Shown: piece by piece, positions 1 to 31,457 of the stretch
Layout of the letters: every line of letters begins with the position of its first letter
Numbering within the stretch: position 1 is the first letter of the stretch
IMG/VR virus record: IMGVR_UViG_3300027649_000002
Location: 1-31,457 of that record
Source: a virus
Strand: one strand, 5' to 3'
Length of the DNA stretch: 31,457 nucleotides
Program-made: the position numbers and the translations under genes
Notes under the pieces: generated by a model
The model's database searches: none
What the model was told of the DNA's origin: nothing
What the model saw: the letters and a program-made list of their open reading frames with translations, nothing else

Positions 1-43
1 AATGTCTTTGAGCATGGCGCCGTCGGTTTCCGCAAGCTCGGCA
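1..43. repeat. Left copy of 43-bp terminal direct repeat
   Basis: Identical base for base to positions 31415-31457. The ParB-like reading frame runs through the join without a break when the two copies are merged. This shows a circular molecule, or a circularly permuted genome assembled to closure, of 31,414 bp. A 43-bp overlap is short for a biological terminal repeat, so an assembly overlap is the simpler reading. Confidence 0.97.
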
Positions 44-484: not shown

Positions 485-1252
485 CTACAAGGTATTAAGG
501 AACACTGCCCTGTTTATAGCCGCCGCGAATCGCGGGCTTAACCTTTGCACGTCAGCCTTGCGGCTCCACATGTCCTTAGCGTTGTGCGATCTGCTGCACC
601 ATTCGAGGTTATCAAGCCGGTTGTTCAGTCGATTGCCGTCAATATGGTTCACGACCGGATGCCCGCCGCTATCAGCAAAGGCAGACGCAACAACTCTGTG
701 CGCCAAGAAATAGGAGTGCGACTTTGCCCCTTCCATCTTGATGCCCACATGCCTGTAGCCAGTGTGGGCGACCGTGCCTGTCAATTCACCATTCGGGCCT
801 TTGAATCGGCCCAGTGTGGAAACGTAGTAGCCTGAAGCGGGGATTGAAGCCCAACGCTCCCCCTCCAAGTCGTAAACCGAATTGGCCTTGATCTCTGACT
901 TGATGCCTCTAGCCTTGAGCTTTTGGAAACGGTCTTGCGCTTTGTATTTCGCCTTGTCTGTCGCGGTTCTGTCCGTTGTCAGGTTGCTCCAGCGATTGTT
1001 TTTCCTGTCGCCGTCAACGTGGAAAACAGTCGATTGCGGCCACGCTCCGGTTGTCAGCAAATAAGCGATGTTCTGAACGCTGTATGCCCGGTTTCTGATT
1101 TCGATCTTCATTCCTTCGCTGCCTCGATTGATGCCCTTGACGATGCGCCCGGCGTAATTGCTATTGCGCCGTGTAAACGTGCCGTCGGCTTCGTTGTAGC
1201 TGAGAAAATGACCGGCTTCGGCTGCGGTCAAAGGATGTTTTGGAGTTTGCAT
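485..1252 (-). CDS. HNH endonuclease with two HNH_3-type modules and a NUMOD4-like domain
   Basis: A 255-residue free-standing HNH endonuclease. Residues 75-92 form a first HNH_3-like unit (FHVDGDRKNNRWSNL). Residues 130-152 resemble NUMOD4 (GERWASIPASGYYVSTLGRF). Residues 184-222 form a second, complete HNH_3 unit (LAHRVVASAF then NHIDGNRLNNRLDNLEWCS). The second has the usual H-N-H arrangement; the first has FHVDG where NHIDG is usual, so it may be inactive. Such proteins nick or cut DNA at specific sites and are often selfish homing elements in phages, though some help packaging. Its position close to the ParB-like and terminase genes allows either role. The ATG at 1252 follows the preceding stop by 5 bp. 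Confidence 0.9.
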   Translation of the reverse strand: MQTPKHPLTAAEAGHFLSYNEADGTFTRRNSNYAGRIVKGINRGSEGMKIEIRNRAYSVQNIAYLLTTGAWPQSTVFHVDGDRKNNRWSNLTTDRTATDKAKYKAQDRFQKLKARGIKSEIKANSVYDLEGERWASIPASGYYVSTLGRFKGPNGELTGTVAHTGYRHVGIKMEGAKSHSYFLAHRVVASAFADSGGHPVVNHIDGNRLNNRLDNLEWCSRSHNAKDMWSRKADVQRLSPRFAAAINRAVFLNTL

Positions 1253-2781: not shown

Positions 2782-2936
2782 TTTGTTCGTTTCGGTCTGA
2801 TCTGCTCCTGCCGCCAAAGGTGCCGCAATATGTCGCGCTCAGTCCTAGCCTCGATGACTTCCTCCACGGCTAGGTGCAGCCGCATCTCGGCGGCGGCGAG
2901 CCGGGTTTCCAACTTCGTAATTCGCTTACGCGGCAT
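2778..2936 (-). CDS. Short coiled-coil protein, 52 aa
   Basis: The start ATG 2936 overlaps the end of the DnaC-like gene by 11 bases; its stop overlaps the next start (ATGA). Residues 5-40 form one long charged helix (KLETRLAAAEMRLHLAVEEV), a likely coiled coil. Unknown function. Confidence 0.75.
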   Translation of the reverse strand: MPRKRITKLETRLAAAEMRLHLAVEEVIEARTERDILRHLWRQEQIRPKRTK

Positions 2937-3567
2937 GCAGTGAAAAGTCTGGCACGGCTGAGAGGTCAACGTGCGTCGAGTTGCGAAAGAATCGGCTCGC
3001 CACTCGGCGGTCGAATTTTTCCTCCCACGCGCTTTGCACGATGTTGGTCGTCACCAAAGTCCATCGCCGTTCCCGACGCGTAAGAATCTGGCAGAGCTTG
3101 TCCGTTCCTACCGCTGACGGGTCGTGGCCGCCGCCGAGTTCGTCAATGATGAGGCACGGCGTCTCCATCATGTCCTCGACAACATCCCATCCGCCGTTTT
3201 TCAAGGTGTCCAGCAGCGCGGGCCAGTGCCAGAAAACGCACGACAGGCTTTCGACGTGGTTCACGCGCCGGATGAATTTCACCGACCCGCCGGCGGCTCT
3301 GATCCATTCCCTTACGGCTTTGGCGCAGTGCGTTTTTCCTGAGCCGGATTCACCGGACAGAAGCAAGAGCCTGCCGGCAAGCGGCGACCTGGCCATGTCG
3401 AAACAGAATCTGCCGGTCTCGCGCTCAAGCTCCACCAGCTTGGGGTGGTGCGTCCGCAGGTTGAGCCACTTCCGGTTCCACTCTGCGCTTGGCAGTGGCG
3501 TAATTGTTAATCGGGTTTCGGCTGACGCCTTCAAGTCGCGGATTACTGCGCTGATTTGGTGTTCCAT
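2926..3567 (-). CDS. DnaC/IstB-like AAA+ ATPase, helicase loader
   Basis: A 213-residue ATPase. Walker A is GESGSGKT (residues 72-79), Walker B is CLIIDELGGG (138-147), sensor 1 is TLVTTN (170-175) and the basic box DRRVASRF (186-193) fits the arginine finger region. This is the DnaC/lambda P-like loader arrangement, which places the host replicative helicase on phage DNA. The N-terminal part (EWNRKWLNLRTHHPKL) looks conserved for phage DnaC proteins, so ATG 3567 is preferred over later starts. The first 143 bases overlap the 3' end of the O-like gene in another frame. It and the O-like gene form the initiator/loader pair. Confidence 0.9.
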   Translation of the reverse strand: MEHQISAVIRDLKASAETRLTITPLPSAEWNRKWLNLRTHHPKLVELERETGRFCFDMARSPLAGRLLLLSGESGSGKTHCAKAVREWIRAAGGSVKFIRRVNHVESLSCVFWHWPALLDTLKNGGWDVVEDMMETPCLIIDELGGGHDPSAVGTDKLCQILTRRERRWTLVTTNIVQSAWEEKFDRRVASRFFRNSTHVDLSAVPDFSLHAA

Positions 3568-4279
3568 ATTTTTGAATCGGTTGATCTTTGGCGGCGTAAT
3601 ACGCCTCAAATTTTGTTTCGTTGAAAAGGGTTGCTGGCCGCAAGAATTTTTCCATGTCCGTCTTGAGCCATTGGGCGCACTGCCGGTCAATCATCTTTTT
3701 GACGCCTTCGATCTCAACGCCGGTCTCATTCAACCGCGCTGAGATGAATTTCAGGCTTGCGTCAACCTCCCTGAATCGGCTCCCTGATTTCTCGTTCAGC
3801 CAATGAAGCGCAATTCGAGAATGAGCGTGATAACTTCCATTCTCTTCTGTCCTATCCTTTCCTTCCTTTCCTTCCTTTCCTTCGTCACCTGCCTGACAGG
3901 CGGCTGTCACCTGCCTGACAGGCGGCTGAATTCCTTCCGCAATGTCTTCAATTTCAAGCCAATCCGTTTTTGTTTCCAGATAGCAAAGGCACTTTTCAAA
4001 CCAAGATTTCGGAGCGCGGGTTTTCAGGCTGAGAGAGGACGAATCGTGGGGCGTTTTGTCGCCGCGCAGCAGACTGCCACGCGGCTGACACTTGGATGCC
4101 ACCTGAATAATCAGCACCCATGCCGCGAAGATTTCCGCGCCGTCTTTGGACGTGATAAGCGCGGAATAATTTTCGCCGTCGTGACGGTTTGGAATCGCCA
4201 CCCAAGCGAGTTTTTCCACAGTGCGGCTCCGGTTGTTTTCAAACAGGGTTGACCAGTTGCGGATGTGGTAAAGCTTCAT
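3425..4279 (-). CDS. O-like replication initiation protein (phage conserved C-terminal domain)
   Basis: A 284-residue protein. Residues 1-115 form an N-terminal domain with many Trp and basic residues, likely DNA-binding. Residues 119-145 are a linker coded by tandem repeats (GKEGKEGKD). Residues 153-230 match the phage conserved C-terminal domain of replisome organisers (LNEKSGSRF, then ARLNETGVEIEGVKKMID, then FLRPATLF and KFEAYY). The last 47 residues overlap the DnaC-like gene and are low-complexity. ATG 4279 is chosen because of the strong GGAGG just upstream and overlap with the stop of a 42-codon leader ORF. The protein is expected to bind the phage origin and hand over to the loader. 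Confidence 0.87.
   Translation of the reverse strand: MKLYHIRNWSTLFENNRSRTVEKLAWVAIPNRHDGENYSALITSKDGAEIFAAWVLIIQVASKCQPRGSLLRGDKTPHDSSSLSLKTRAPKSWFEKCLCYLETKTDWLEIEDIAEGIQPPVRQVTAACQAGDEGKEGKEGKDRTEENGSYHAHSRIALHWLNEKSGSRFREVDASLKFISARLNETGVEIEGVKKMIDRQCAQWLKTDMEKFLRPATLFNETKFEAYYAAKDQPIQKYGTPNQRSNPRLEGVSRNPINNYATAKRRVEPEVAQPADAPPQAGGA
3855..3883. repeat. Three 9-bp tandem repeats in a 29-bp pure pyrimidine tract
   Basis: Three exact copies of TCCTTTCCT plus TC on the plus strand, a polypurine run on the coding strand. It lies in the linker part of the O-like gene and encodes GKE repeats. In lambda the origin is in the same place, inside O, with iterons next to a skewed region. Confidence 0.9.
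3884..3927. repeat. Two 22-bp perfect tandem repeats with internal palindrome, candidate origin iterons
   Basis: Positions 3884-3905 and 3906-3927 are identical. Each copy holds the inverted repeat GCCTG-A-CAGGC. The unit is 22 bp, not a multiple of three, so the two copies are translated in different frames. Together with the adjacent 9-bp repeats, the setting inside the initiator gene linker suggests binding sites for the O-like protein. Only two iterons are fewer than in lambda. Confidence 0.6.
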
Positions 4280-19424: not shown

Positions 19425-20744
19425 TTACTCAAATACTGTGGCTATATCAGCGCGTGGAACCGGATCGGCATCTCGCATGTTCTTAATTGTTTGAGTCAAT
19501 TCTTTCAATGCGTTGGTGTTCTGTTGCGTGTTGTAAATCATCGGGTTATAGGCTTGAACTCCGACGCCCAGATTGGCCTTAGCTGCCGAGTCAATGGAAA
19601 TTGGGCCGATGCCGCGAGTCGTCTGGGAATCAAGTCCGGATGCAATGCCGACGGCTTCCTTTTGCAGTTTGATGGATTCAAGGTCTCCTTTGGTCGTGCC
19701 TTTGGCGTTCTCGACTTTAGCCTGTTCTATTAGATCAAGAATTTCCTGCCGCTTTGCAATGTTCTGGTCAAGCGGGTCAAGCTGGGCAACGAGAGCGTTT
19801 TGAATTACCTTGTCAAGATCGGCTTGTGCATTTGCGACTTTGATGGGTCGCTCGTTAACAGGATATAGTTTCTCGGTTGATTTTTCTTCCGTGCCGGTCA
19901 TCCCAATGCCTCCGCCAACGTCGTATTTGTTTTTTTTGTCCGTGCCTTTTATTGCTCCGCCAACCACAGCGGTGAGTAATTCTGTGCCTAGATATTGTGG
20001 CCCAGCGGCAATAGTCGCCCCCAATGAGGTCCTTGAATTTATAGCTTTCTGCGCTGCTTTTACAAGTTCTGACATCACGCCGGCAATCGGTTCGGAGGCG
20101 ATGGAATGCCAACTGTTTTTCATTCGCTCAAAAGCCTTGTCCGCCTTGTCAATTTCGTTTTTCGACTCTTCGCTGATAAGCGGAATGGCTCGGCCTTCTC
20201 CAAGTTCTTTCAACCCCTGAATAAACTTGCCGCCGCTTTTGCCAAATAGCTCCTGCATGTCTGACATCATGGCGGGGTTCACATTCATGTCCTTCATGGC
20301 AACTCCAATTTTCTTCATCAGATCGAAGTTGGTGACGCTGGCATTGTTTAGGTCGTCCATTGAAACGCCGTATCTATTAAAAGCAGCAAGCTTGTCGTCA
20401 TCCCCAACAAACGCGCTATTTCGCGCCGAAGCCATTTTCATTAAAGCTGCTTCTGCGTCACCGGCTTCCAGCCCGAACATTTTGAACGCCTGAATCAATC
20501 GCTGCGTTTCTTCAAACGTCGTGTTCTGACGGTCGGCAAAATCGTCAATGGCAAGAGCCGCTTTGGCCACGTCCAGAATCAGCGTCTTGAAAGCCTGAAT
20601 TGAAACGTAGCTAGCCGCCAATGATTTCAGATCGCCGGAAATCTTGCCGGTCAAGCGGTTCATCGTTTTGCCAACGCGCCCCGCCGCCCGCTCAAATCCG
20701 GTTGAGTCGCCGTCAATTACGATCTTTGTTCCGAGCGTGCTCAT
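19425..20744 (-). CDS. Short tail tape measure protein
   Basis: A 439-residue protein. Residues 1-60 (TKIVIDGDSTGFERAAGRVG, KISGDLKSLAASY) match the N-terminal pattern of lambda-like tape measures. Helical coiled regions follow (FEETQRLIQAFKMFGLEAGD; KADKAFERMKNSW), with a hydrophobic segment around 240-265. Tape measures set tail length at about 0.15 nm per residue, so the tail would be short, near 65 nm. ATG overlaps the upstream TGA by four bases. Confidence 0.85.
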   Translation of the reverse strand: MSTLGTKIVIDGDSTGFERAAGRVGKTMNRLTGKISGDLKSLAASYVSIQAFKTLILDVAKAALAIDDFADRQNTTFEETQRLIQAFKMFGLEAGDAEAALMKMASARNSAFVGDDDKLAAFNRYGVSMDDLNNASVTNFDLMKKIGVAMKDMNVNPAMMSDMQELFGKSGGKFIQGLKELGEGRAIPLISEESKNEIDKADKAFERMKNSWHSIASEPIAGVMSELVKAAQKAINSRTSLGATIAAGPQYLGTELLTAVVGGAIKGTDKKNKYDVGGGIGMTGTEEKSTEKLYPVNERPIKVANAQADLDKVIQNALVAQLDPLDQNIAKRQEILDLIEQAKVENAKGTTKGDLESIKLQKEAVGIASGLDSQTTRGIGPISIDSAAKANLGVGVQAYNPMIYNTQQNTNALKELTQTIKNMRDADPVPRADIATVFE

Positions 20745-31228: not shown

Positions 31229-31457
31229 TCAGGTCGTGAACTCATGTTTGCACGCGGGACAACTGATCGGTTTCTTTTGGTCAAGCCGTCCTTGCTCTTC
31301 TGCGGTTGCCGGCTGGAAGTCTGGCGGTTGGTAAAAATTTATGACCCGCTCTAACTCACCCGCATCAAACCCGGTCACGTCCATGTCATACGCTCCGGTG
31401 TCGAGGTCGCCGAGAATGTCTTTGAGCATGGCGCCGTCGGTTTCCGCAAGCTCGGCA
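31229..31457 (-). CDS. ParB-like nuclease-domain protein, C-terminal part
   Basis: Codons 120-180 of the gene described at positions 1-357, with the 43-bp terminal repeat included at its right end. The part reads through LGDLDTGAYDMDVTGFDAGE and ends in a single CPACKH knuckle and FTT. It stops seven bases before the start of the small terminase gene, so ParB-like, small and large terminase genes are in one transcript. Confidence 0.85.
   Translation of the reverse strand, partial: AELAETDGAMLKDILGDLDTGAYDMDVTGFDAGELERVINFYQPPDFQPATAEEQGRLDQKKPISCPACKHEFTT
31415..31457. repeat. Right copy of 43-bp terminal direct repeat
   Basis: Identical to positions 1-43, inside the ParB-like gene. It marks the closure point of the circular sequence. 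Confidence 0.97.

Follow-up and report, generated by a model that had tools for sequence, protein, structure and literature searches.

The stretch of DNA analysed here, hereafter the window, comprises 31,457 bases of an uncultivated phage (IMG/VR record IMGVR_UViG_3300027649_000002). It carries a 43-bp direct terminal repeat (window 1–43 and 31415–31457), which fits either a closed circle or terminal redundancy. An initiator gene on the minus strand is adjoined downstream by a gene for a DnaC-like helicase loader, as in the lambda-type arrangement; farther downstream are genes for a RusA-like resolvase, an exonuclease-like protein and an Erf-type annealing protein, and this company indicates that the region is a replication and recombination module. 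An HNH endonuclease gene (window 485–1252, minus strand), with matches to 20 PHROG HNH-type families, lies near the module. The features of the initiator–loader segment are the following:

2926–3567, minus strand: gene for the DnaC-like helicase loader (IstB/DnaC-like matches), starting at ATG 3567 or at ATG 3396, past the initiator stop
3425–4279, minus strand: initiator ('O-like') gene, 284 amino acids from ATG 4279 (starts of homologues, a GGAGG upstream, Pfam and PHROG initiator matches)
3935–4279, minus strand: N-terminal domain, a predicted winged helix and divergent relative of Phage_rep_org_N, proposed to bind the array (AlphaFold, hhalign)
3596–3805, minus strand: C-terminal domain Phg_2220_C (PF09524; Pfam E 2.8e-20, residues 159–228), proposed to contact the helicase or its loader
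3884–3905, plus strand: first copy of the 22-bp repeat, two 11-bp units (sequence, Tandem Repeats Finder)
3906–3927, plus strand: second copy of the 22-bp repeat, two 11-bp units (sequence, Tandem Repeats Finder)
3880–3923, minus strand: four 11-bp units with cores TGTCA (3920–3916), TGACA (3909–3905), TGTCA (3898–3894) and TGACG (3887–3883) (exact 11-bp spacing, lag-11 excess in 15 homologues)
3834–3883, minus strand: purine tract on the coding strand (pyrimidines on the plus strand), adjoining the last unit, a proposed unwinding or strand-loading element (purine fraction, codon test)

The list of open reading frames began the initiator at GTG 4447, a start that we reject because homologues align from ATG 4279 and GGAGG precedes the latter codon. 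The best PHROG match of the protein is PHROG 428 ('replication initiation protein'), and its PF09524 score of 72.2–72.6 bits lies above the cut-off of 27 bits. The full-length model consists of two ordered domains and the disordered residues 116–147 (pLDDT<50), which correspond to gene nucleotides 346–441 and coincide with the array plus the tract; the repeats do, as had been claimed, sit in the linker between the initiator domains. The N-terminal domain was modelled by AlphaFold with a pLDDT of 87.6, and its profile aligns with that of a Firmicutes Phage_rep_org_N set (hhalign, profile–profile; probability 95.2, E 2.7e-8). The Pfam model of that family, PF09681 (cut-off 23.3 bits), has no match in the window protein and is matched by four of 13 family members (best E 3.5e-4); L026 matches it below the cut-off. 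Structural searches with the N-terminal domain returned weak matches: the best Foldseek E was 0.17, and the leading fold matches were CodY (Z 5.3), 4pql (Z 5.1, rmsd 2.9, 79 residues) and 4pt7 (Z 4.8), in a range, Z under 8, that commonly arises by chance. A PDB sequence search found no relative at E below 1. The original prediction had called the protein an O-like initiator with a lambda-type origin. Its initiator domains and the layout of the locus sustain this view, but the kinship implied by the name does not hold: PF04492 (Phage_rep_O), which lambda O itself matches at 5.7e-36, has no match at E 0.1 in the 13 members including the window protein, and the latter is accordingly placed outside the lambda O family.

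Within the linker-coding segment, the 9-mer TCCTTTCCT occurs in three perfect copies (3855–3863, 3864–3872 and 3873–3881), and 2 bp separate this block (3855–3881) from two identical copies of the 22-mer GTCACCTGCCTGACAGGCGGCT (3884–3905 and 3906–3927), each of which contains the odd palindrome GCCTGACAGGC. Tandem Repeats Finder places the 22-bp array at the top of its 13 rows for the window (100% matches, score 90) and a 9-bp array (3834–3883) second (score 61), and the earlier description of three 9-bp and two perfect 22-bp repeats with palindromes proved correct to the base. Perfect CCTGWCAGNC sites are absent from the 31,457 bases outside the 22-mers. The 9-bp unit is in frame and encodes GKE/KEG peptide repeats; the two 22-mer copies are read in different frames, since 22 is not divisible by 3.

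Relatives of the initiator were gathered in a first IMG/VR search (6 loci) and an alignment search (18 viral loci and one in a bacterial genome, a Terriglobia MAG, the single bacterial-genome relative of the protein). The first set comprised 15 sequences including the window, with duplicates removed by eye. By a motif rule, 12 of the 15 have units spaced by 11 bp and three (L022, L025, L026) have half-sites at 20–22 bp; the copies at 11-bp spacing number seven in L004 and eight in L015 (the same as L008). When linkers of these 15 homologues were compared with shuffles that preserve the peptide and draw on the codon usage of the set, self-match at lag 11 was 0.428 against 0.313 expected (z=12); lag 22 gave z=9 and lag 33 z=4.6, and the remaining lags of the 30 rose to at most z=2.3. 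The repeat units fall in all three reading frames, and this, together with the excess over peptide-preserving shuffles, argues that the DNA is under selection beyond the peptide. Hence, one half of the claim that a 22-bp unit out of phase with the code reflects conservation of the DNA stands; the unit length does not, because the relatives give 11 bp. The array is thus built of 11-bp units, each spanning a single turn of the helix, and a 22-bp repeat comprises two of them. Comparison with related phages had been proposed as a check, and close relatives indeed carry the repeats, with their sequence changed.

The held-out analysis, whose plan was fixed in advance, used 43 linkers: the best 80 of 89 loci, minus 15 on earlier-used contigs, one short frame and 21 near-duplicate linkers. 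Lag 11 was the top of the 30 lags (z=8.0), lag 21 reached z=6.3, and lag 11 exceeded z=2 singly in 12 of the 43. The motif rule assigned 11 of the 43 linkers to an 11-bp class, 18 to a 21-bp class and 14 to neither, against rates in synonymous shuffles of about 8% for the 11-bp class and about 7% for the 21-bp class; the class patterns are loose, and of 58 sequences they match the linker in 44 and the N-domain coding region, taken as a control, in 19. Linkers of the 21-bp class, the source of the lag-21 signal, bear the inverted half-sites CCCGCA and TGCGGG, with two helical turns per unit (L138, L140, L143, L145, L146, L149, L154, L156, L157, L161, L162, L164, L166, L172, L174, L175, L180, L182, L022, L025 and L026). 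Our search of the open-access literature turned up no account of origins with 11-bp phasing in this initiator family.

The second DNA-level feature is the tract 3834–3883, which contains the three 9-bp repeats (3855–3881). The slightly longer segment 3834–3894 has a purine fraction of 0.90 and ranks within the least stable 9% of the gene's 40-nt windows. A purine-rich tract follows the array in all 15 sequences of the first set (purine fraction 0.83–0.98), and for 12 of these 15 tracts no more than 13% of the gene's 40-nt windows are less stable. Their GC content is ordinary (0.48 in the window, 0.31–0.57 in the relatives), AT-richness being absent in the window. We delimited the tracts by peptide composition, so that their choice is independent of the glycine codons tested. 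In the 15 sequences, the ratio of GGA/GGG to GGC/GGT glycine codons is 46:5 inside the tract versus 88:108 outside, and that of AGA/AGG to CGN arginine codons is 15:2 versus 49:189; the 43 held-out linkers give 96:14 versus 303:345 for glycine (p=1e-16) and 52:21 versus 156:606 for arginine (p=2e-18). Glycine and arginine codons in the tract are thus forced to purines. A tract scoring 19 or more is present in 34 of the 43 held-out linkers, and a clear tract is absent in nine.

The distribution of the repeat classes bears on which part of the initiator recognises them. We scored 58 sequences as 11-bp class, 21-bp class or neither and placed these states on a tree of their N-terminal domains. 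Five changes suffice for the 11-bp class, against a mean of 18.4 after shuffling, and seven for the 21-bp class, against 17.5; none of 500 shuffles came as low in either case. Pairs, which are not independent of each other, were formed from the 42 classed sequences, out of 44, whose C-terminal part is at least 60 amino acids long. Where the N-domains reach 55% identity, the class is common to 146 of 169 pairs and still to 130 of 153 such pairs with different C-domains; it differs in 12 of 15 pairs with similar C-domains and N-domains less than 45% identical. In these comparisons, the repeat class tracks the N-terminal domain and not the exchangeable C-terminal domain, which suggests that the N-domain is probably the binder of the array. 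The array also physically adjoins the N-domain, and recombination breakpoints in the tract could therefore explain the linkage. At the level of the repeat sequence itself the coupling is looser. Four core types cluster weakly on the N-domain tree of the 15 sequences (five changes against a mean of 6.5 in shuffles, 13 of 200 of which needed no more), and the near-identical N-domains of L004 and L015 accompany arrays in which the central base of most units differs, indicating that the N-domain does not fix the whole repeat sequence. The proposition that the N-domain alone would fix it is thus only partly upheld.

The helicase module behind the initiator varies as well. The next gene encodes a helicase loader, DnaB or a Toprim–DnaB_C protein at all ten loci scanned (from 13 listed), with DnaB next in five of the ten and a DnaC-like loader in two. 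A protein with Toprim and DnaB_C domains is encoded after the initiator in L015, L016 and L021. This variation of the next gene indicates that the helicase module is exchangeable.

Several readings other than a replication origin have to be weighed against these observations. Iterons of known replicons often regulate the initiator gene too, and an initiator bound to an array within its own gene could block transcription; the repeats might therefore be sites by which the initiator autoregulates its operon, and not a replication start. We consider this quite unlikely, as it leaves unexplained both the DNA-level purine tract beside the array and the lambda-like order of iterons followed by a purine-asymmetric tract (PMC5043065), and as the site has no further perfect copies in the window. 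Selection on the linker peptide, a charged KEG-type linker with a CQ/PPV-type peptide repeat, would make the DNA repeats a by-product or the outcome of slippage, which does generate simple repeats; the in-frame 9-bp repeat and the disorder of the peptide speak for this view. However, the lag-11 and lag-22 excess survives peptide-preserving shuffles, the units occupy all frames, and the glycine and arginine codons of the tract avoid pyrimidines, so that this explanation is very unlikely. As a full account, peptide-level selection is rejected by the peptide-preserving codon shuffles.

The palindromes could alternatively form an mRNA hairpin regulating translation of the initiator or the loader. 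The RNA of the window is indeed more stably folded than its shuffles (z=-3.0 and -3.6), as are those of four relatives, with z below -2.4, but z is above -1.3 in seven of the 15 arrays folded, and L010, L019, L023 and L016 fold at chance yet keep phased repeats. RNA folding does not explain the 11-bp period, and the sole Rfam match, to a microRNA, is sub-threshold and lies outside the segment. The hairpin, strong in the window and not conserved across relatives, was rejected as a most improbable explanation. The least credible reading, with a minimal share of the probability, is that a mobile palindromic element, REP-like or of another kind, inserted here by chance: tandem 22-bp repeats with short palindromes resemble such elements, but one exact 20-base pattern was without a match in 2.9 million viral contigs, and diverged 11-bp arrays occupy the same place in relatives.

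In contrast to these alternatives, the phased repeats, the purine tract, the initiator domains and the adjacent loader, all of them computational observations, support the original prediction of a candidate origin: the segment 3834–3927 is very probably the theta-type, lambda-kind origin of this phage, predicted to lie inside the linker-coding segment of its initiator. Points that weigh against this are the 14 of 43 held-out linkers in neither repeat class, the nine lacking a clear tract, the matches of the loose class patterns in the N-domain control, and a tract that is not AT-rich. Under this origin reading, the N-terminal winged-helix domain would bind the 11-bp units, which, recurring once per helical turn, would present the same face of the DNA, and several bound copies of the initiator may bend or wrap it. 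The adjoining strand-asymmetric purine/pyrimidine tract would then open, and the C-terminal domain together with the DnaC-like loader would put the host DnaB helicase on the opened strand. The order N-domain, array, tract, C-domain, and helicase or loader gene is kept in the relatives. A check by GC skew had also been proposed: on the closed circle, the detrended cumulative skew bottoms out at 4010, some 100 bp from the array, and peaks at 19879, on the opposite side of the circle. The position fits, but the signal is weak: the bottom is shallow, and the range stands out with 300-bp blocks (p=0.0045) but does not with 1-kb blocks (p=0.12); the skew agrees with the origin reading and carries little weight.

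Origins within the initiator gene are already known from lambda, SPP1 and 80alpha. The lambda origin is described as having four iterons of 18 bp next to 38 bp of AT-rich sequence (PMC3349717), and a review finds it paradoxical that in its unwinding region nearly all purines are on one strand (PMC5043065). Lambda resembles the window in having repeats in the initiator gene between protein regions, then a coding-strand purine-rich tract, with gene P next (PMC3349717, PMC5043065). Our period scan of lambda O returned 23–24 bp at the annotated iterons; the top-scoring purine segment in gene O begins within the last iteron, at its end, and continues past it on the coding strand, with the same polarity as in the window. 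In contrast, lambda has 18-bp iterons at 20–24 bp spacing and an AT-rich region where the window has 11-bp units and a tract of ordinary GC, and O belongs to PF04492, outside of which the window initiator falls.

Staphylococcus phage 80alpha (ORF20/ORF21) is likewise comparable in having an origin in the initiator gene, Phg_2220_C in ORF20 and then a DnaC-like loader; ORF20 mutants are not complemented in trans, which suggests an embedded origin (PMC5499656). The period scan of 80alpha gave 15 bp inside the annotated origin; it differs from the window in these 15-bp repeats and in its N-domain (HTH_36-like, weak). The origin of Lactococcus phage TP901-1 is embedded in its Rep initiator gene, where the scan also gave 15 bp; Rep too differs in its N-domain (HTH_36-like) and its 15-bp repeats. 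Bacillus phage SPP1, compared by its published description, has an origin, oriL, in gene 38, with direct repeats and an unwinding element, bound by the initiator, and resembles the window in carrying both within the initiator gene; it differs in that its element is AT-rich and that it has a second origin, oriR (PMC6316719). Other known phages were not uniform: the period scan detected no more than a weak repeat array in Lactococcus PLg-TB25 and no clear repeat array in Bacillus phage vB_BpsM-61. Among the top fold matches of the N-domain, 4pql and 4pt7 are winged-helix N-domains that we take to be those of RepA (RepA_N) of staphylococcal multiresistance plasmids. RepA_N-type RepA proteins bind iterons within their own gene; the match, however, is weak, tied with CodY and other winged helices, and has a Foldseek E above 0.1.

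The closest parallel in the N-terminal domain is offered by the Firmicutes Phage_rep_org_N (PF09681) phages, e.g., Streptococcus phage Javan242, whose N-domain is homologous and whose linkers have GTAACGTTAC sites mostly 10–12 bp apart followed by a purine-rich tract. They differ in their core, in a less regular spacing (10/11/12) and in an AT-rich tract with GATA-like repeats. In the comparison, which used 34 of 35 non-redundant sequences drawn from 71 loci, lags 10, 11, 12, 23 and 35 are raised, and lag 6 also; this mixed spectrum indicates that an exact 11-bp regularity is not general there. The Firmicutes-type loci L034–L104 bear GTAACGTTAC palindromes 10–12 bp apart and then a GATAAAGA-type tract. 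Their phages, which are relatives of common phages of Staphylococcus, Streptococcus and Listeria, apparently share the origin layout. Our search of the open-access literature found no paper treating Firmicutes Phage_rep_org_N linkers as origins.

The new features of the present family are its 11-bp helically phased units, a purine tract whose GC content is ordinary, and a repeat class that goes with the N-domain across uncultivated phages. Only a few initiator-gene origins are known, and these differ from one another in all respects. By contrast, the layout is constant in dozens of relatives here, which vary in repeat sequence, in period (11 or 21 bp), in C-terminal module and in helicase module; the family thereby constitutes a natural series for reading the site specificity of initiators and for asking what makes origins open. 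As the asymmetry is kept at ordinary GC with codons forced, it is separable from AT-richness and the question becomes testable. A tentative and rather doubtful extension is that, in this large group of uncultivated phages, what marks the opening element is its purine/pyrimidine strand asymmetry and not its AT content, and that the element might act as a strand-capture track, with an initiator filament on the phased sites or the loader gripping one strand in register, like DnaA on the DnaA-trio; N-domain, array and tract could then be one exchangeable origin cassette, joined by recombination to varying C-terminal and helicase modules. For phage origins in metagenomes, a practical rule follows: look for phased repeats and a purine tract in the initiator linker.

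A further feature concerns the junction of array and tract in some of the relatives. An alternating CG run of 12–14 nt lies exactly between the two in L010 (about 3387–3401), L014, L145 and L166, and L173 has an 8-nt run 11 nt away. Alternating CG runs favour Z-DNA. Such runs occur at most 30 nt before the tract in five of the 58 sequences versus 0.3 expected from synonymous shuffles, and elsewhere there are four in all 58 open reading frames.
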